From a virus: DNA of 57,997 nucleotides. The position numbers and the translations under genes are program-made. The stretch covers positions 1 through 57,997 of the IMG/VR virus record IMGVR_UViG_3300020733_000018. One strand, written 5' to 3'. Under the pieces are notes generated by a model. That model was given only the letters and a program-made list of their open reading frames with translations. It had not been told where the DNA came from and made no database searches. Below, in pieces: positions 19,967 through 36,567 of this stretch (the first letter of the stretch is position 1; every line of letters begins with the position of its first letter).

Positions 19967-22900
19967 TTACAAATTTTCAAATGAAACACTTGTTGGAGTT
20001 ACATCAAACTCAAGTTCAATAAACTCTAATGCATCAATTGGTTTCAAGAATATTTTACCTGTTAAGGTATTTCTATCTGTATCAGAAGCTGGATCCAATT
20101 TGATTCTAAAATCACTTAGACCTCTTTCTTTTCTAATATTATCCAATATTGGATTAACTAATGATAAGAATTGTGTTCTTACAATATCGTCATTTGGATC
20201 GAATAATAATCTATTAGAAACAGATATAATAAGTTTTCTTGCTTGAAGTAATAATCTTCTGATATTCAATCTGTTAAGAGCTGAATCTCTTTCTTGTAAG
20301 TTTCTATTACCCCAAATTACTGTACCAACATCAGAGAAGGTTGCTATTGGGTTAACTCTTGAAGGATAAAGAATATCTCTTGCGTCTTGGTCAAGAACAA
20401 TTCTTGTTCTTTTACAGTTAACTAAACCTCTATTATAACCTGCGGTAGCAAACCAAGGGAATGCAACGTTATCGGTATAAGCTAAGTTTCTTACTACTTC
20501 AAGAGTAGGTGGTAACCATAGGTAAGCATTGTTTTCAACGTCAGCTATTTGTAACCAAGGATAGAAAAGAGCTGTATAGTTTGAATCTAAGTTCAAATTA
20601 TCCATCATATCAGAGATATCATTAGGGAACATCCATTGAGTTGTATCTGCTGGATTTGTATTGTTATATACAGATATATCTGGTATTGTTGCGATATAGA
20701 TTGAATCTAATCTTTTCTCTTCAACTATTGTTATTACCTCTTGTGCTAATTCATTGTTATTTACAACATCAATACCTGGAGTTACTAATACATTTATATT
20801 AGTTTTTTCTGGGTTTTGGAATGTTTTATAACCATATAGGTAAGCATAGTAATCCGAAGAACCCCAAGTTTCGTCATATTCAGCATTAGTGAATGAAGCA
20901 AAATGTCCATTAACAAAGCTTGATTGTCCAATTCTGTATAAATCACCATTAGTTCTTGTATCTCTATAGAAATCCCAACCATCAAATCCTCCAGACATAA
21001 GCGCTGTGAATTTTCTTGTTTTGATATCGTAATATGTTTGAGTTGTATCTGTAGCTAAAAGTACTGGGTCAGTGAATTGTCCATCTCCAACAGCATATAA
21101 AGAAGTATCAGCATTTACGTCAAGGTGGAAACCTTTTGTCATACCACCCCAAGGGTTACCTGTATTATATGTAATTGTACCAATATTTTCAGCACCAATG
21201 AATGATGTTATATCAGCGTCAAAACCATAATCATAGTCACTGAAACCTAAGTAAGTTTTTCTAACTTTATCTCCAGAAGATATCAAAGTAGTTCCCAAAG
21301 GATTAGTTTGCCATACATCACCAGGTTGATAATACTTAGTTTTGTATGCAATTTCTGGTATAGCCACATCAGAATATGTTCTGAAAGAATAACCTTCGAA
21401 ACCAGCTGGAACAGCATCAGAAGGTGCGTTTGGATCAACATCAATTATGATATATGAACTATTTAATGTATATTTGTTATCAAGTGTACCAACTAATCTT
21501 CCGATAAAGTTAGAACTTGCTTCATCCATTGTACAATTCAAGTATCTTTCGAATATAACAGGCACAGCATCAGTATCAGAGAACGATCTAACCAAAAGGT
21601 CAAATGTACCCTTAGCAAGATCTACGTTTGCAATAGAAACCTTAATTTCAGTATTTGCATGATTACCATCAGATATAGAAACCACTCTGAATAGATTTTG
21701 TGCTTTTCCACCTCTTAACTCGGAAACAAAGAACGGAGTAGAAGGGGCTTGGTATTGGAACATAAAGTTATTCCAACCACCTGCACCAGCTGGGATATAT
21801 TTCAATTCAGGATGAAGTCCTTTTATTTTACCATTTAACCAACCTTTTGCAAGTGTTGAATCATATGTTTCTTCAACATACATTTCAGTAGTTTTATCGG
21901 TATTTGTAACACCAAGTACGTTTTTGATATAATTTCTTTTTGTTTCATCCAAAGAAAGATTATATGTGAATGTAGTACTTGTTGTAGTTTTACCTGTTAT
22001 TGTAATGTCAGCATAAGGATTTGATTCAGCGCTAACAATACTACCATATCCTACAGTTGAACCACTAACTAAAAAGTCTAATGTATCATTCACATAAAGA
22101 CCTTTTCCTCTAATTGTAGAAACCAACATATTATGATATTCTGCATATGGATCAGCAGCATATGATGTAACGTATATTTTAACTTTACCAAAGATTGATG
22201 TACCGTTTTCATATACATGGTCTGTTGTCATTATGAATGAAACACCACTATATGTTTCAGTCATAGTATCGTATACAAACGTATCATTTATAAAGTAAGC
22301 ATCTTCATCGCTTGAAGGTACAGTTGATGGATAAACATAAGAATCAACAGTAGATGGTGCATTATTCACATACGTAGAAGTATTACCACCAGTCGTTTTA
22401 GCTGCATTTGTTACAGTTGTAACTGTTGCTGAAGGGTTAACACCCCATTTCATTATATCGTGCTTCCAATAGTTACCTGTAGTACCTGTAGCAGTAGTGT
22501 ATTTTGCAAAGTAATTGTTATAAGCATTCACAATCAGTGATGAGTCAATACCTACCAAACTTGCTATATTTGCAAGAACTGATGTTGATGTTCCTGTTAC
22601 ATTATAAACAGTATCAGTTGTTGTACCTGAGAAACCAAAAGTATAAGATGTTGTTGTAGGTACCATTGTGGTTTGATCAACCGCACCGAGCGTTCTAATT
22701 GCCCAAGCATCTCCTTTATCGTAACCAGATAAACCAAGAATACGAGTTACGTACAATTGGTTTGATTGACTCAAATAATTTTTTGCTATATATGAAAGTT
22801 CATATTTAACAATTTGGGTATTTCTAAATTTTTCAGGATTAATTCCACCAAAAACCTTAGAAAATTGGTCATAATTTGCAATAGGAATTGGCTGAAATGC

Positions 22901-23020
22901 TGGGCCTTTTACGGTTTCGCCAGCCGCACCTAAAGTCGTTATACCAATCGTCTCAATGCTGTATGTTAAATCTTTCTCTGAAGTGTAAACACCAGGTGAC
23001 GCATAAACTATATTTGCCAT
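19967..23020 (-). CDS. tail sheath protein, T4 gp18-like (1017 aa)
   Basis: Contractile tail sheath subunit. The N-terminus has the family pattern SPGVYTSEKDLTYSIETIG followed by LGAAGETVKGPAFQPIPI and FSKVFGG. The C-terminal quarter carries the conserved sheath domain: AYLWLPPTLEVVRNLAYTDN, FPWFATAGYNRGLV, LDQDARDILYPSRVNPIATF, then NLQERDSALNRLNIRRLLL. T4 gp18 has 659 residues, so the central part holds several hundred extra Thr/Ser/Gly/Asn-rich residues, most likely surface domains. Upstream is a one-mismatch late promoter motif; downstream is the GGACC palindrome cluster. Confidence 0.95.
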   Translation of the reverse strand: MANIVYASPGVYTSEKDLTYSIETIGITTLGAAGETVKGPAFQPIPIANYDQFSKVFGGINPEKFRNTQIVKYELSYIAKNYLSQSNQLYVTRILGLSGYDKGDAWAIRTLGAVDQTTMVPTTTSYTFGFSGTTTDTVYNVTGTSTSVLANIASLVGIDSSLIVNAYNNYFAKYTTATGTTGNYWKHDIMKWGVNPSATVTTVTNAAKTTGGNTSTYVNNAPSTVDSYVYPSTVPSSDEDAYFINDTFVYDTMTETYSGVSFIMTTDHVYENGTSIFGKVKIYVTSYAADPYAEYHNMLVSTIRGKGLYVNDTLDFLVSGSTVGYGSIVSAESNPYADITITGKTTTSTTFTYNLSLDETKRNYIKNVLGVTNTDKTTEMYVEETYDSTLAKGWLNGKIKGLHPELKYIPAGAGGWNNFMFQYQAPSTPFFVSELRGGKAQNLFRVVSISDGNHANTEIKVSIANVDLAKGTFDLLVRSFSDTDAVPVIFERYLNCTMDEASSNFIGRLVGTLDNKYTLNSSYIIIDVDPNAPSDAVPAGFEGYSFRTYSDVAIPEIAYKTKYYQPGDVWQTNPLGTTLISSGDKVRKTYLGFSDYDYGFDADITSFIGAENIGTITYNTGNPWGGMTKGFHLDVNADTSLYAVGDGQFTDPVLLATDTTQTYYDIKTRKFTALMSGGFDGWDFYRDTRTNGDLYRIGQSSFVNGHFASFTNAEYDETWGSSDYYAYLYGYKTFQNPEKTNINVLVTPGIDVVNNNELAQEVITIVEEKRLDSIYIATIPDISVYNNTNPADTTQWMFPNDISDMMDNLNLDSNYTALFYPWLQIADVENNAYLWLPPTLEVVRNLAYTDNVAFPWFATAGYNRGLVNCKRTRIVLDQDARDILYPSRVNPIATFSDVGTVIWGNRNLQERDSALNRLNIRRLLLQARKLIISVSNRLLFDPNDDIVRTQFLSLVNPILDNIRKERGLSDFRIKLDPASDTDRNTLTGKIFLKPIDALEFIELEFDVTPTSVSFENL

Positions 23021-23914: not shown

Positions 23915-24529
23915 ATGAGTTGCGTTTATATACATACAAGAAAAGATAATAATGAAGTTTTTTATGTTGGTATAGGTAAAACCGAAAAAAGGGCTTATTC
24001 TAAGTTTAATAGAAATAAACATTGGTTAAATATTATAAATAAAGTAGATTATAATGTATTAATTTTGAAAAGTAATATTAGTTGGGTTGATGCTTGTTTG
24101 GAAGAAGAAAGGCTAATTACTTTATATGGTCGAATTGATTTAAATAGTGGTACCTTAGTTAATTTAACAAATGGTGGTGAGGGTAAAATTAATTTTATTG
24201 TTACTGATGATATAAAAAAGAAAATGTCTAAAGCTCAGAAAGGTAGAATTATAACTGTTGAACATAGAGATAAAATATCCAAATCTATGAAAGGACGTAT
24301 ACCAGTAAATAAAGGTAAAAAACTAACTGATATTGAATTAGAAAAATTTAATAAACTATATTACAAACCAATATTACAATATAAATTAAATGGTGAGTTT
24401 ATTAAGGAATACCCATCTGCTAAAATAGCATCTAAAGATGTTAATATATTAAGGACAAGTATTAATAATTGTTGTTACGGTAGATCTAAATCCGCTGGTG
24501 GTTTTAAATGGGTATTTAAAACCAATTGA
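23915..24529 (+). CDS. GIY-YIG homing endonuclease with NUMOD domains
   Basis: A 204-residue free-standing homing endonuclease. An N-terminal GIY-YIG nuclease domain is visible (CVYIHTRKDNNEVFYVGIGKTEKRA, residues 3-27) with EEERLITLYG as the catalytic glutamate region (about 62-71). It is followed by a NUMOD3-like DNA-binding repeat (KKKMSKAQKGR, then RDKISKSMKGR) and a NUMOD1-like C-terminal domain (ILQYKLNGEFIKEYPSAKIA through SAGGFKWVF). It reads rightward between two leftward neck genes, as expected of an inserted mobile gene. Confidence 0.88.
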   Translation: MSCVYIHTRKDNNEVFYVGIGKTEKRAYSKFNRNKHWLNIINKVDYNVLILKSNISWVDACLEEERLITLYGRIDLNSGTLVNLTNGGEGKINFIVTDDIKKKMSKAQKGRIITVEHRDKISKSMKGRIPVNKGKKLTDIELEKFNKLYYKPILQYKLNGEFIKEYPSAKIASKDVNILRTSINNCCYGRSKSAGGFKWVFKTN

Positions 24530-25128: not shown

Positions 25129-25629
25129 ATGTTAGATTTAAAAAAATTATCCGATATTATTGAATATCTGGAATTAATACCAGGTTATAACGATTGTATT
25201 TTGAATAAAACATGTTATAGAATTGGTGAATTTTGGTCATTAACCTATGATTTTGAAAAGTTTAGAAAAAAACTGAACGCAAATTGGGATGAAAACGAAG
25301 TTTTAAACTACATATATAAAAATTATAATTATAAAGATAATTTTTTTGTTAAAATTATAGAAAACCCAACCAGAAAGAAAATTGCTAAATATGATAATAA
25401 AATGCTTTTTTGCGATGGTTTAGATGAAGCACTTATTGGTGTTAGATTTGGTTTTGATGAAAATAAAAATATAGCGGTTTATGATTACGATAGATGTATA
25501 GATTCTATCTTAGCTGAATCGGACGGAGAAATGGAAGAATGTGATGCTATAGAACATATGGAATATAATGTTACTGGTGCATATGTTGGTGAATACACTC
25601 CATGTTTTTTAACAAATATTGATGAATAA
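25129..25629 (+). CDS. conserved phage protein of unknown function (166 aa)
   Basis: The start is taken at ATG 25129 (MLDLKKLSDIIEYLEL), not at the further-upstream ATG, because the extra upstream 33 residues would be a hydrophobic run over the promoter and over the opposite gene. The C-terminal part, YDYDRCIDSILAESDG and then EHMEYNVTGAYVGEYTPCF, looks like a conserved phage domain, but I cannot name it or give a function. Its stop overlaps the ATG of the helicase gene by 8 bases, so the two are probably translated together, from the promoter at 25064-25095. Confidence 0.7.
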   Translation: MLDLKKLSDIIEYLELIPGYNDCILNKTCYRIGEFWSLTYDFEKFRKKLNANWDENEVLNYIYKNYNYKDNFFVKIIENPTRKKIAKYDNKMLFCDGLDEALIGVRFGFDENKNIAVYDYDRCIDSILAESDGEMEECDAIEHMEYNVTGAYVGEYTPCFLTNIDE

Positions 25630-28513
25630 TATACCAATTGAAATACAAGCTAAAGAAATTCTAATAAATTACCAAGGATCCAATGATTATTTACTGGAAA
25701 TAAAAGGTTATTTATTAAGCAAAAAAGCGTTTCCGTTAACTTCAAATATATGTAAATACATAATATCTAATCAGAAAGTAAAACCTATTGTTTTGAATAA
25801 AAAATATGTTTTACATAAAAGTATTAGAGGTTTTTTAAAAAGCCAATATAAATTAGATTTTATACCTGAAGAAATTTTTATTAATAAATTATTAACACGA
25901 AAAGTCGATAACCTTCACCTTTGGGCTTGTTTTAATCAAGATTGTAAATACTATTTTTCAGTTTATTTGGATAAAAATTGTATCAAAAATAGTAAAACTA
26001 TTGAATTACCTTCTTTTGATCAGTATGATAGGCCGCCAAAAAAACACCAATTAACAGCAATCAAAACTTTATTGGAAAATGATAAATTTATCTTGGCTGA
26101 TGATATGGGTTTGGGTAAAATGGAATTTGTTGATAACCAATTGTTTACACCATTTGGTAGGAAAAGAATTGGTGATATAATTGTCGGTGATAAAGTTATT
26201 GGTTCAGATGGTAAACCATATAATGTTGTTGGTGTTTTTCCACAAGGTAATAAAGAATTATTTAAGGTAACCTTTAATGATGGTTATTCTATTTTAGTCG
26301 GTGGTGAACACCTTTGGTCTGTTTCAACTAATTGTAATGGTGAAAATAATAAAAATAGAAAAAATAGATATATTACATTAAGTACAAATCAAATGCTTGA
26401 TAAAAATTTGATTTTACAACAAAATGGTTCGGATTGGAATGAAAAAAGACCCTACAAATACTCAACATACTATAAAAAAAATAATGGCGCATCTAAATGG
26501 CAGATACCTATCGTTAAACCTATAGAATTTTACAATAATTATGAATTACCTATTGAACCATATTTATTAGGTGTTTGTTTGGGTGATGGTAACATAAAAA
26601 ATTCATCAGTAAAATTTGAGATACATAAAGATGATTTTGAAGAATTATTTACAGGTGTTGAATTTAATGAATTATCACCTGTTGGCAATAGACGATCATG
26701 TAATTTAAACTTCGGTAATAAATTACAATTATTAAATATTAATAATAAAACTTCAGATACTAAATTTATACCAGATAAATATAAATATAGTTCAATAGTT
26801 AATAGAATTGCGATTTTGCAAGGTTTGATGGATACTGATGGTCATTGCATGAAATCAAAAAAAGGTTTGTTTGCTGGTACGGAATACGCTACGGTATCTG
26901 AAAAATTAGCTGACGATATTGCTGAGATAGTTCATAGTTTGGGTGGTATTGTGCGTAAAAAAAGTAAAATTGGTTCCTATAGAAAGCCAGATGGAACTAA
27001 GGTTATTTGTAAAAAATGTTATCGTTTAAATATAAAGATGCCTACAGGTATTAATCCTTTTAGATTAAAACGTAAAGCTATATTATATAAAGAACCTGAA
27101 AAATATAAAGTTGGTAGATATATTAAGGATATCCAACCTTGTGGTACTGGTGAAGCTGTTTGTATATCAGTAGATAGTCCAGATAAATTATATGTTACAG
27201 AACACGCAATTGTAACACATAATACAACATCTACCATTCTTGCTGCGATAACTGGTGGATATAAAAGGATTTTGGTTGTCTGCCCAGCATCTCTTAAATT
27301 GAACTGGAAAAAAGAAATAAGTTTGTATGATAACCCAAACGATATTAGTATTGTAGAAGGTTCTGATTTTACATTCAAAAAATGGACTATTGTAAACTAT
27401 GATATCCTTAAAAACTTCCATAATTTGAAAGAAAAAGGTCAAGATCCAGAAGATGTAAAAGAATCAATAATCGATTTTTATAAATTTGATTTAGTTATAG
27501 CTGATGAAGCACATTACCTTAAAAATGCTACCGCAAATAGAACAAAATTATTTAATGATTTTGCGATGAAAATTGGTACCAGATGGTTACTAACTGGTAC
27601 ACCAATAACTAATAAACCAATTGATTTATATAATTTATTATATCTTTGTGAATCCCCACTTAGTACAAATTGGGTTGGGTATGTTAGGCGTTATTGTGCT
27701 GGTAGACAATTCAAAAGAAAAGGGTCAACACAAAAATATTGGGTAACTGATGGTGCAACAAATCTTGAAGAATTAAAAGAATTTACAGACGATTTGATCC
27801 TTAGAAGGCTTAAAAAAGATGCTGTTGATTTACCACAAAAGACAATAAAACCAATATATTTACCATTATCCTCTTCAAGAAGATATCAGGATTATATGGA
27901 AGAATATCAAAATTGGTATGATGAACAAGTAGAAAATGGGATTGAACCTAAACCAACAGAACATCTTACACAATTGATAAAGGTTAGACAATTACTATCT
28001 GAAGACAAATTAAGTACAACAATCAATCTTGTAGAAGATATAATTGAAAGTGGTAGAAAAGTTATTATTTTTTCATGTTTTTCTAATAGTATTAGAACAA
28101 TTCATGACCATTTTGGTAAAAAGTCTGTTTTAATTGATGGTGCTGTAAGCGCTAAAAATAGAGATATTGCCGTTGAAAAGTTTCAAAACGATGATAAAAT
28201 CAAAGTTTTTTGTGGTAACATTGTTGCGGCAGGTGTTGGTTTAACTTTAACTGAAGGTTCTGTGGTGATATTCAACGATGTTGATTGGACACCAGCAAAT
28301 CACTTACAAGCTGGTGATCGTGCACATAGAATGGGACAAACGAATGAAGTACACATAATTTATCCTTTAATAGATGGTACTTTAGATACGGTTATGTACA
28401 ACAAACTACAGGAGAAAATTAAAAATATTAGTACTGTAATGGGAGATGAAAATAATGATATTTTCAATGATACATCTATGATTTCTGATGTTATAAAGTC
28501 TTTAAAAGATTAG
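25622..28513 (+). CDS. SNF2-family DNA helicase/ATPase interrupted by an intein (963 aa precursor)
   Basis: Superfamily 2, SNF2-type DNA translocase. Residues 1-166 and 535-963 form the extein (595 aa after splicing). Motif I is split: LADDMGLGK (to residue 166) continues as TTSTILAAITGG after the intein. Further motifs are ILVVCPASLKLNWKKE (Ia), DEAHYLKN (DEAH at 628-631), RWLLTGTPITNKPIDLYNLL (III), and a second RecA domain with KVIIFSCFSNS, NIVAAGVGLTLTEGS and AGDRAHRMGQ (V and VI). The role in the phage is probably replication, recombination or fork remodelling. The start is ATG 25622, one codon after an in-frame TTG. The stop overlaps that of the opposite gene by 4 bases. Confidence 0.92.
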   Translation: MNNIPIEIQAKEILINYQGSNDYLLEIKGYLLSKKAFPLTSNICKYIISNQKVKPIVLNKKYVLHKSIRGFLKSQYKLDFIPEEIFINKLLTRKVDNLHLWACFNQDCKYYFSVYLDKNCIKNSKTIELPSFDQYDRPPKKHQLTAIKTLLENDKFILADDMGLGKMEFVDNQLFTPFGRKRIGDIIVGDKVIGSDGKPYNVVGVFPQGNKELFKVTFNDGYSILVGGEHLWSVSTNCNGENNKNRKNRYITLSTNQMLDKNLILQQNGSDWNEKRPYKYSTYYKKNNGASKWQIPIVKPIEFYNNYELPIEPYLLGVCLGDGNIKNSSVKFEIHKDDFEELFTGVEFNELSPVGNRRSCNLNFGNKLQLLNINNKTSDTKFIPDKYKYSSIVNRIAILQGLMDTDGHCMKSKKGLFAGTEYATVSEKLADDIAEIVHSLGGIVRKKSKIGSYRKPDGTKVICKKCYRLNIKMPTGINPFRLKRKAILYKEPEKYKVGRYIKDIQPCGTGEAVCISVDSPDKLYVTEHAIVTHNTTSTILAAITGGYKRILVVCPASLKLNWKKEISLYDNPNDISIVEGSDFTFKKWTIVNYDILKNFHNLKEKGQDPEDVKESIIDFYKFDLVIADEAHYLKNATANRTKLFNDFAMKIGTRWLLTGTPITNKPIDLYNLLYLCESPLSTNWVGYVRRYCAGRQFKRKGSTQKYWVTDGATNLEELKEFTDDLILRRLKKDAVDLPQKTIKPIYLPLSSSRRYQDYMEEYQNWYDEQVENGIEPKPTEHLTQLIKVRQLLSEDKLSTTINLVEDIIESGRKVIIFSCFSNSIRTIHDHFGKKSVLIDGAVSAKNRDIAVEKFQNDDKIKVFCGNIVAAGVGLTLTEGSVVIFNDVDWTPANHLQAGDRAHRMGQTNEVHIIYPLIDGTLDTVMYNKLQEKIKNISTVMGDENNDIFNDTSMISDVIKSLKD
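26120..27223 (+). mobile_element. class 3-type intein with LAGLIDADG endonuclease (368 aa)
   Basis: In-frame protein insertion in the Walker A loop. Intein residue 1 is Met, not Cys/Ser/Ala; the end is VTHN followed by Thr of the extein. Splicing blocks: RIGDIIVGDKVIGSDG (block A region), GGEHLWSV with Trp66, VCISVD with Cys348 and THN with Thr366-His367-Asn368. The W-C-T set and a non-nucleophile first residue define class 3 inteins, in which the block F Cys starts splicing. A LAGLIDADG homing endonuclease sits between, with LLGVCLGDG (about 149-157) and LQGLMDTDG (about 233-241); both acidic residues are kept, so it may be active. Confidence 0.9.
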
Positions 28514-33360: not shown

Positions 33361-36300
33361 ATGAGTGAATATAGTATCCCAATGGAGTCTGTGGAAAAGT
33401 TTCTTTCTGGTCATGGTGAAGAGAAATATATTGTAAATATTGAATATGAATCTGACACAAATACAATATATAAAATCAAAGATATACCAGAACAAGGGAT
33501 TGTTATTGAGAAAGAATTCTTAAAATCTTTCATGTGGATTAAAAACCTTAATGAAGTTAAAAAGATTTGCAACTTTTATCATAACAACGATCTTACCATT
33601 AAACTCAAAATGAAGGAGTATGGCATCCAAATTAAAAAGCTAAGACACGATGACCACCCAAGATTAGTGAATGGTTACACATATTTAGTTACATGTGAAC
33701 AAGGACACAAAAGAATGCTATCATTTTTTGCTGATGGTGGTATAAATTTCTACAACAAGTTTGAAAAGAGAATTAATTTAAAGGAATATTTTACAATATT
33801 ATCCCCAATTGAACAGTATTTTATCAGTACTGGTAATCGTTTATATAAAGGTATTGAAGATTATAATGAGTTGACAAAACTTATTTTTGACTTGGAAACA
33901 ACAGGCTTGGATCCAAATATAGAAAAAATATTTTTGATTGGTTGTAAAACTAATAAAGGATATGAAAAATTGATTGAAATCGACATAAACGACCCTGAAT
34001 CTGAAAAAAATGGGATTATACAATTCTTCAATGAAATCGATGCAATAAAACCAACTATCATTGGTGGTTACAATAGTGCAAACTTTGACTGGTATTTCAT
34101 ATTCAAAAGATGTCAAATTCTTGGTATTGATATTGAAAATATCGCAAAGACTCTGAAAAAAGATAAACAAATATACGTTACTGAACAAATACTAAAACTT
34201 GGTAACGAGGTTGAAAGATATATCCAAACAAATATGTTCGGATATAGTATTATCGATATTAACCACTCAACCAGAAGAGCACAAGCTATTGATTCTGATA
34301 TGAAATTTACCAGATTGAAATATGTTTGTAAATATAATGATGTTGCTAAATCAAATCGTGTATACATCGTTGGTGAAAATATTGGAAAATATTGGAAAAG
34401 CGACAAGAAATATTATTTTGATGATAAAAGTGGTTCATATTCTGAAATTAAACCAAAAGTTGAGTATATGGATTTTATCACGAGACAGATTGTTAAAGAT
34501 AATCCAGACAAAATATTTATTTTCGGTGATAATGATCTAAGAGAAGGTTTTGGTGGTCAGGCCAAAGAAATGAGAAACGAAAAAAACTCTATTGGTATTG
34601 TCACAAAAAAAGCGCCAGGTACAACTGATGATTGTTATTATAATGATGATGAGTTTGAATTAAATAAAAAGAAAATAAATCTCGACCTAAAAATTATAAT
34701 TAACGAAATAAAGAAAGGTAAATGTATTGTTATACCTTCTTCTGGTATTGGTACAGGTTTAGCTAAATTACAGGAAAAAGCTCCAAAAACCTTCAAATTT
34801 TTACAAAATTCTTTAAACTTATTAAAGGTTTATTGTGATAGTTTTGTAGAATGTGATGGTAAATATATTGTTAACAGATACTTGATGGATGACCTTTGGG
34901 AAACACTCGAAGTTGATAATATTTACAATCAATCATCATTTATGTTGGCTAAATTAATACCAACAAGTTATCAAAGAGTATCTACAATGGGTACTGCTGG
35001 ACTATGGAAAATGTTGATGTTAACATGGTCTTATGAAAATGATTTAGCAATTCCAATAAATGATGAAAAACGAGATTTCGTTGGTGGATTATCAAGACTG
35101 TTTAAAGTTGGTTTTTCTAAGAAATTAAGAAAGATGGACTATTCATCTCTTTATCCTTCTATACAGCTTGCACATGAGGTGTTCCCATCTTGTGATATAA
35201 CACATGTAATGAAATCTTTACTTAAATATTTTCACTCTGAACGTTTTAAAGCAAAGAATCTCGCTAAGAAATACGGTAAAGCTGGTGATAAACAAATGAA
35301 AAGTTTTTATGACCGTAAACAATTACCTCTGAAAATATTCATCAACTCAATGTTCGGTGCCCTTGGAGCACCAACAGCATTTAACTGGGCTGAAATGGAT
35401 GTTGCTGAAGGTATTACTGCGAGAGCAAGACAATACTTAAGGATAATGGTTAAATTTTTTATGGCTAAAGGTTATGAACCATTAGTACTTGATACGGATG
35501 GTGTTAACTTTATGGCACCAGAATCTGGAGAGGAAAATTTTAGATACATTGGTCTGGGTAATAATGAAGCTGTAATTAAAGATAAAGAATACACAGGAGT
35601 TGATGCAGTGATTGCTGAATTTAATGATTTATTCATGAAAGGTGAAATGGCATTAAGTTTGGATGGTACATGGCCGTCAACCATAAATCTTGCTCGTAAA
35701 AACTATGCCTTACTTGAAGATAGTGGTAAAGTAAAATTGACTGGTAATAGTATCAAATCTAAAAAAATGCCAGCCTATATTGAAGAATTTTTGGATAAAG
35801 CCTTGGTTTTACTATTAAATGAAAAAGGTTCTGAATTTGTTAACTACTACAATACCTACGTTCAAAAAATATATAATAAAGAAATTCCACTTTCAAAAAT
35901 TGCAACAAAAGCAAGAGTTAAAAAAACTTTAGAAGATTATAAAAATCGTGGGCTTAACAAGAACGGTAAACCATTACCAAAGCAAGCTCATATGGAATTA
36001 GCCATAATCAATAAATTAAATATTAATCTTGGAGATACTTTATATTACGTTAATAATGGTACAAAATTAACTCAAGGCGATATTCAAACAGTAAAAGTTA
36101 CAAAAAAAGGTTGGTCAGAAAAAGATATAGAAGATCATATAACTCATTATGGTAAATCACCAGTGGGTCTAACATCGATAAATAAATTAAATTGTTATAT
36201 GTTAGATAGCAAAGAATTGGAAGATAAACCAGATATGTTAGGTGAGTACAATGTAGCAAAATATTTGGATGCTTTCAACAAGAGAATCAAACCGCTTTTA

Positions 36301-36567
36301 GTTGTCTTTAGTGAAGATATTAGAGCTGGTTTACTATTAAAAAACCCTTCAGATAAAAAGGATTATTTAAAAAATGAGTTGAAGCTAATCAATGGTATAC
36401 CATATAAAGAGGCTGACCAAGATACTATACAAGATTTATTTACACCATCGGAACTTGAAAATGTTTACTGGAAAAAAATGAATTATAATCCAAATTTCTG
36501 GTTTAATGATAAAATAAACTTTACTGTTCCAGGGTTAGATAGGGTGGTTGAGATAGAAAATATATAA
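33361..36567 (+). CDS. family B DNA polymerase with an extra domain in the exonuclease region (1068 aa)
   Basis: Replicative DNA polymerase with proofreading. Exo I is FDLETTG (Asp177, Glu179), Exo II GGYNSANFDW (Asn238, Asp243), Exo III YLMDD near residues 507-511. Polymerase motif A is MDYSSLYPSIQ (Asp593), motif B KIFINSMFGALGAP (Lys658), motif C VLDTDGVNF (Asp711, Asp713). T4 gp43 is 898 residues; most of the excess is an inserted segment at about residues 363-490 containing IFIFGDNDLREGFGGQA and CIVIPSSGIGTGLAKLQEKAP, a domain otherwise found as a separate small phage or plasmid protein. A host-type promoter precedes the gene. Confidence 0.95.
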   Translation: MSEYSIPMESVEKFLSGHGEEKYIVNIEYESDTNTIYKIKDIPEQGIVIEKEFLKSFMWIKNLNEVKKICNFYHNNDLTIKLKMKEYGIQIKKLRHDDHPRLVNGYTYLVTCEQGHKRMLSFFADGGINFYNKFEKRINLKEYFTILSPIEQYFISTGNRLYKGIEDYNELTKLIFDLETTGLDPNIEKIFLIGCKTNKGYEKLIEIDINDPESEKNGIIQFFNEIDAIKPTIIGGYNSANFDWYFIFKRCQILGIDIENIAKTLKKDKQIYVTEQILKLGNEVERYIQTNMFGYSIIDINHSTRRAQAIDSDMKFTRLKYVCKYNDVAKSNRVYIVGENIGKYWKSDKKYYFDDKSGSYSEIKPKVEYMDFITRQIVKDNPDKIFIFGDNDLREGFGGQAKEMRNEKNSIGIVTKKAPGTTDDCYYNDDEFELNKKKINLDLKIIINEIKKGKCIVIPSSGIGTGLAKLQEKAPKTFKFLQNSLNLLKVYCDSFVECDGKYIVNRYLMDDLWETLEVDNIYNQSSFMLAKLIPTSYQRVSTMGTAGLWKMLMLTWSYENDLAIPINDEKRDFVGGLSRLFKVGFSKKLRKMDYSSLYPSIQLAHEVFPSCDITHVMKSLLKYFHSERFKAKNLAKKYGKAGDKQMKSFYDRKQLPLKIFINSMFGALGAPTAFNWAEMDVAEGITARARQYLRIMVKFFMAKGYEPLVLDTDGVNFMAPESGEENFRYIGLGNNEAVIKDKEYTGVDAVIAEFNDLFMKGEMALSLDGTWPSTINLARKNYALLEDSGKVKLTGNSIKSKKMPAYIEEFLDKALVLLLNEKGSEFVNYYNTYVQKIYNKEIPLSKIATKARVKKTLEDYKNRGLNKNGKPLPKQAHMELAIINKLNINLGDTLYYVNNGTKLTQGDIQTVKVTKKGWSEKDIEDHITHYGKSPVGLTSINKLNCYMLDSKELEDKPDMLGEYNVAKYLDAFNKRIKPLLVVFSEDIRAGLLLKNPSDKKDYLKNELKLINGIPYKEADQDTIQDLFTPSELENVYWKKMNYNPNFWFNDKINFTVPGLDRVVEIENI

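Follow-up and report, generated by a model that had tools for sequence, protein, structure and literature searches.

A putative full-length class 3 intein that interrupts the P-loop of a tailed-phage SNF2 helicase, and covariation of its first residue with block B

The helicase gene and its inserted segment

The window (the whole stretch of DNA analysed, 57,997 nucleotides of virus record IMGVR_UViG_3300020733_000018) carried an open reading frame for a SNF2-family helicase on the plus strand (25619-28513, ATG at 25622), which was open throughout and encoded 963 amino acids (Table 1). Its Walker A loop read ADDMGLGK, followed by 368 extra in-frame codons and then TTSTILAA. The original prediction, made from the sequence, that an in-frame segment at 26120-27223 splits the GLGK/TT of the SNF2 Walker A motif was exact in its coordinates, and Met1, Trp66, Cys348, Thr366, His367, Asn368 and the +1 Thr were all found where it had placed them. 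The Pfam SNF2-rel_dom match started at profile position 47 in the precursor and at position 1 after joining of the flanks. Within the insert, the Pfam profiles LAGLIDADG_3 and Hom_end scored above cut-off and Hom_end_hint below it. The predicted LAGLIDADG endonuclease with intact-looking acidic residues was likewise recovered, with Asp156, Asp238 and Asp240 all present. The Pfam profile Intein_splicing (PF14890) did not match the helicase intein, so that silence of this profile is uninformative. Profiles of class 1 and class 3 inteins detected no further intein in the window.

Table 1. Coordinates of the helicase gene, its intein and key residues in the window.
Feature	Position	Strand	Description and evidence
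SNF2-family helicase precursor gene	25622..28513	+	963 aa (extein 595, intein 368), stop codon included; ORF, Pfam PF00176 and PF00271, PHROG 62 DNA helicase
N-extein, last residues ADDMGLGK (first half of Walker A)	25622..26119	+	sequence; empty alleles
Class 3 intein, Met1 to Asn368, 368 aa	26120..27223	+	sequence, alignment, conservation, tree
Met1, intein residue 1, at N-splice junction	26120..26122	+	
Gly61, block B:7, covaries with residue 1	26300..26302	+	
His64, block B:10	26309..26311	+	91/91 in intein family
Trp66, block B:12, W of WCT	26315..26317	+	family: W 87/91, F 4/91
LAGLIDADG motif 1, LLGVCLGDG, contains Asp156	26564..26590	+	
LAGLIDADG motif 2, LQGLMDTDG, contains Asp238 and Asp240	26816..26842	+	
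Cys348, block F:4, C of WCT, predicted initiating nucleophile	27161..27163	+	91/91
Thr366-His367-Asn368, block G, T of WCT, Asn predicted to cyclise	27215..27223	+	THN in all family members
Thr+1, predicted second nucleophile and Walker A threonine	27224..27226	+	
C-extein, remaining helicase motifs	27224..28510	+	

Three other genes in the window were noted. A free-standing homing endonuclease-like gene (23915-24529, plus strand; PHROG 314, with a GIY-YIG-like start by eye) lies approximately 1.1 kb upstream of the helicase gene. An unusually long tail sheath protein (1017 aa; 19967-23020, minus strand) showed Pfam sheath domains in its last 280 residues only, and a family B DNA polymerase (33361-36567, plus strand) contained DUF7831 (PF25176), which occupies residues 368-483 and separates the exonuclease match from the polymerase match.

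Splicing residues and the first residue across relatives

A whole-protein scan returned 80 viral loci, and all those long enough to show it carried the insert at the helicase site. Two further scans brought the helicase-intein family at the GxGK/T site to 91 distinct inteins. Cys F:4, Thr G:5 and His B:10 were each present in all 91 and the terminal THN was invariant, while B:12 was Trp in 87 and Phe in four; the W-C-T residues whose absence from close homologues would have spoken against the prediction were thus conserved across the family, with replacement of Trp by Phe as the exception. Residue 1 was Ala in 24 family members, Cys in 20, Phe in 18, Gly in 17, Met in six, Leu in three and Ser in three. 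On a tree of 72 clusters it had changed at least 27 times, at least ten of these between Cys or Ser and other residues; on a tree of 48 that was built with more care, the figures were 21 and nine. Since residue 1 changes freely and Cys F:4 never does, Cys F:4, rather than residue 1, behaves as the catalytic residue.

Lack of a nucleophile at residue 1 is a textbook trait of class 3 inteins. With Cys1 or Ser1 in 23 of 91 members, it is not a trait of this family, although it holds for the copy in the window. A conserved W-C-T set combined with a variable residue 1 matches the definition of class 3 given in PMC3196547 and PMC7664689. Instead of the Cys, Ser or Thr at residue 1 that marks class 1, the window intein has the non-nucleophilic Met1, together with Cys F:4, Trp B:12, Thr G:5 and His B:10 as in class 3; sequence comparison suggests that residue 1 is dispensable as a nucleophile. 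Met1, rightly taken by the original prediction as the first intein residue, is no special feature: residue 1 is highly variable and some relatives have Cys or Ser there.

Class assignment by alignment, tree and structure model

The class 3 route is the less common one among inteins. Among solved structures, the insert matched gp41-1 and the DnaB inteins of class 3, and its residue 1 aligned with theirs. The position of Met1 at the splice junction, which an alignment might have overturned, was borne out by its register with residue 1 of gp41-1, by empty alleles that join K to T and by exact DNA junctions. As modelled with AlphaFold (pLDDT 82, pTM 0.84), the precursor segment matched PI-SceI over most of its length and class 3 DnaB structures locally, so that the modelled fold resembles intein and homing-endonuclease structures, class 3 DnaB inteins among them.

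A class tree was built with 16 class 3-type inteins of other loci (TerL, DnaB, exonuclease and helicases) and ten class 1-type inteins; the class 3 references were a presumed ET08 orthologue and inteins chosen by similarity, instead of curated Bethlehem and Catera sequences. Class 3 and class 1 were separated at 100/100, with the window family inside class 3. The family shared one 100/100 clade with ET08 gp202, Rousseau DnaB and others, and its sisters were L166 and L083, which likewise interrupt the P-loop of SNF2 proteins. Among Bixzunavirus genomes, ET08 gp202 (L172) is probably the orthologue of Mycobacteriophage Catera Gp206. The intein of Catera Gp206 is a proven class 3 intein (PMC3196547). 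The W-C-T residues, the 100/100 clade and the model matches all point to the predicted class 3 identity.

Covariation of residue 1 with block B:7

Within the family, Phe1, Met1 and Leu1 occurred with Gly at B:7 in 27 of 27 cases and Gly1 with Asp in 17 of 17, while the partners of Ala1 and Cys1 were Cys, Asp, Gly, Ser or Thr. By corrected mutual information, residue 1 and B:7 ranked 15th of 67,528 column pairs, and the strongest partners of residue 1 were positions 60-61. Tree-independent contrasts between a bulky residue 1 and Gly61 were on average 8.9 concordant to 0 discordant (median p approximately 0.004); for Gly1 and Asp61 there were five such contrasts only, too few for significance.

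The expectation that a bulky residue 1 is accompanied by Gly and Gly1 by Asp was fixed before the out-of-family set was assembled, at which time 16 reference inteins had already been seen. This set consisted of 127 clusters of class 3 inteins at GK/ sites, including some of the 16 references. Gly at B:7 was found in none of 93 clusters with Ala, Gly or Ser as residue 1 and in 22 of 34 with another residue 1 (Fisher p 2e-16). It accompanied a bulky hydrophobic residue 1 in 10 of 16 clusters and, which had not been foreseen, Asp1 or Glu1 in 12 of 13; Gly1 had Asp at B:7 in 3 of 3. The contrasts between residue 1 and B:7 were 7.7 to 0. Exceptions were found among clusters with Leu1, which had Cys, Ser or Asp at B:7 in 6 of 11. 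Side-chain volumes at the two positions were anticorrelated both within and outside the family (rho -0.75 and -0.48, respectively).

These results indicated that residue 1 and B:7 are probably coupled in class 3 inteins: large or acidic residues (Phe, Met, Val, Asp, Glu and often Leu) go with Gly, whereas small ones (Ala, Ser and Gly) are in most cases paired with Asp, Cys or Ser and never with Gly in inteins outside the family. If so, residue 1 is not fully free even though it is not a nucleophile. Class 3 inteins have been described as having no conserved residue at B:7 (there N3:7), with Gly or Asp in those characterised (PMC7891396), a finding that the coupling may explain. The covariation also fits the contact seen in a crystal structure, in which Asp62 (B:7) lies near Ala1 (PMC6195587). 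Compensation of size, and perhaps of charge, at the N-junction would be a plausible cause. A literature search on intein coevolution and block B returned nothing relevant, which is weak evidence of novelty.

Four copies (L020, L037, L076 and L184) were the only family members with a class 1-like TxxH block B and are possibly mixed class 1/class 3 inteins. Their Thr at B:7, in each case accompanied by Cys1 and in L020 also by Phe at B:12, would fit a drift of some family copies back to a class 1 start, in which Cys1 with a TxxH block B would be used in place of Cys F:4. We consider such drift rather unlikely: Cys F:4 and Thr G:5 are retained in all four copies, Thr at B:7 is also seen together with Ala1 in out-of-family inteins, and the tree shows only about three origins of this Thr, not enough for a test. 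It would in any case have no bearing on the Met1 copy in the window. Likewise, a test for a general association between Cys1 and Thr at B:7 gave too few cases on the tree to support a claim.

Empty sites, mobility and selection

Empty alleles were retrieved in a scan with the joined P-loop region and filled loci in separate searches, so that proportions of filled and empty sites are meaningless. The helicase was uninterrupted through the insertion point at 79 related loci, nearly all of which read GLGKTT. Such loci, empty at exactly the same point, together with the splicing residues conserved in the family, argue that the insert is not a product of chance. In the closest filled/empty pair, L057 (with intein) and L165 (without), the exteins were 94.9% identical over 588 residues and the DNA junctions were exact. 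Presence or absence of the intein required 18 changes on an extein tree of 114 rows, and at least 13 of these changes were forced by supported branches. This number of gains or losses indicates that the element is mobile. In addition, extein and intein trees disagreed for L005, whose extein grouped in one clade with those of L014 and the window copy and whose intein belonged to the other intein clade, as horizontal transfer predicts.

Between relatives, dN/dS was 0.03-0.23, alike in the splicing and endonuclease parts, so that neither part looks decayed; by this sequence measure, both intein domains are under purifying selection in relatives. The endonuclease residues Asp238 and Asp240 were present in 68 of 68 rows and Asp156 in 63, its loss being confined to five related rows. 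Two family members (L235 and L236; 933-base matches) were shortened by approximately 57 residues relative to the usual 365-371, to 311 aa in L235, possibly as a result of partial endonuclease loss.

A decayed relic, in which Met1 marks a lost class 1 nucleophile, splicing has ceased and helicase function is lost or provided in trans, would share with the window copy a residue 1 that is not a nucleophile, and a class 3-like intein that is a proven pseudogene is known from Arthrobacter Arth_1007 (PMC3196547). However, Arth_1007 lacks Cys F:4 and His B:10 (PMC3196547), whereas all other splicing residues of the window intein are intact. The purifying selection in relatives, the equally varied residue 1 across the whole family and the open C-extein with its retained helicase motifs also oppose decay, which we regard as very unlikely.

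Other features of related loci

A second intein was observed in helicase motif VI (EDR / C...VHN / C-F/Y-RIGQ) of L023, L026, L035, L052, L053, L066 and overlapping loci, 15 in all. It has Cys1 and Cys+1 and grouped with class 1, so that a single polypeptide of these relatives holds one intein of each class, class 3 and class 1. The same combination occurs in Mycobacterium smegmatis DnaB. An approximately 50-codon copy of the helicase 3' end, comprising the motif VI region, was found separate from the intact helicase gene, about 1 kb downstream of it, in L011 (5130-5282), L013 (7937-8089), L048 (3601-3744) and L062 (3372-3524), and represents a partial duplication. Genes in RefSeq phage records (e.g., NC_028972, NC_071007, NC_028986 and NC_054727) were named 'DarB-like antirestriction' where GenBank gave TerL, GyrA or helicase; the former name is probably an annotation error carried by the shared intein part.

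Proposed splicing and homing mechanism

Sequence and model evidence together make it highly probable that the insert is a full-length class 3 intein, mobile and lodged in the ATP-binding loop of a tailed-phage SNF2 helicase, and it is predicted to splice itself out and to home. As expected for its class, Cys348 would attack the Lys(-1)-Met1 peptide bond, aided by His64 and Thr366, to yield the block F branched thioester, from which the N-extein would pass to Thr+1. Cyclisation of Asn368 would then release the 368-aa intein, and the resulting helicase of 595 aa would have an uninterrupted GLGKTT Walker A motif. Residue 1 would have no chemical role, although its side chain must suit B:7, as Met1 may suit Gly61 in the window copy. 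The putative LAGLIDADG endonuclease would cut uninterrupted alleles at the same site, into which the intein would be copied. Because Lys(-1) and Thr(+1) form the Walker A pair, no ATPase activity is expected of the precursor before splicing; such a block by an intein in the P-loop of RadA has been reported (PMC6195587). A class 2-like route, with direct attack of Thr+1 on the N-junction and Cys348 not serving as branch point, shares the absence of a residue 1 nucleophile and the use of +1 (PMC5222942) but is the least credible reading, since Cys348 and Thr366 are invariant, the intein falls in the class 3 clade and class 2 inteins have been described only from KlbA genes (PMC3196547).

Comparison with known inteins and implications

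Class 3 inteins are already known, as are insertion into the P-loop and the presence of a class 3 intein in the Snf2 protein of a bacterium (PMC3196547, PMC5050341, PMC6195587), so that the window intein adds a member and not a kind. The mycobacterial inteins DnaBi1 and MchDnaB1 (PDB 6bs8 and 6rix) share with it the P-loop insertion in an ATPase, the WCT set and a non-nucleophilic residue 1 (PMC6195587, PMC7664689), as well as sequence and local structural similarity; unlike it, they are mini-inteins without endonuclease, in DnaB instead of SNF2, and have Ala1 and Asp at B:7 in place of Met1 and Gly. The Snf2 helicase of Deinococcus radiodurans contains a class 3 intein whose splicing was shown by experiment, as cited in PMC3196547 and PMC11219805, but it lies on a bacterial chromosome; it was compared by description. 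Full-length class 3-type inteins of phage helicases were found in Mycobacteriophage C1 (Pinkcreek gp172, L082) and Brevundimonas phage Domovoi (L176), at GxGK/S or GxGK/T sites like that of the window, and the Domovoi intein also has Met1 and Gly at B:7. Both were approximately 31-33% identical to the window intein and lay on separate branches of the class 3 tree. ET08 gp202 falls in the same 100/100 clade and has the WCT set and LAGLIDADG motifs, but differs in its extein, its Ser1 and its Asp at B:7. The rule that links residue 1 to B:7 is the part for which no precedent was found in the literature searched.

The family constitutes a natural mutation experiment, with 91 distinct copies and seven different first residues at one site, in which approximately ten gains or losses of Cys1 or Ser1 contrast with an internal Cys that stayed constant. 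With residue 1 variable and Cys F:4 constant, the class of an intein cannot be read from residue 1, and approximately one fifth of the family would be missed by a count in which class 3 is defined by the absence of Cys from residue 1 (as in PMC7891396). The rule for residue 1 and B:7 would help in the engineering of class 3 inteins.
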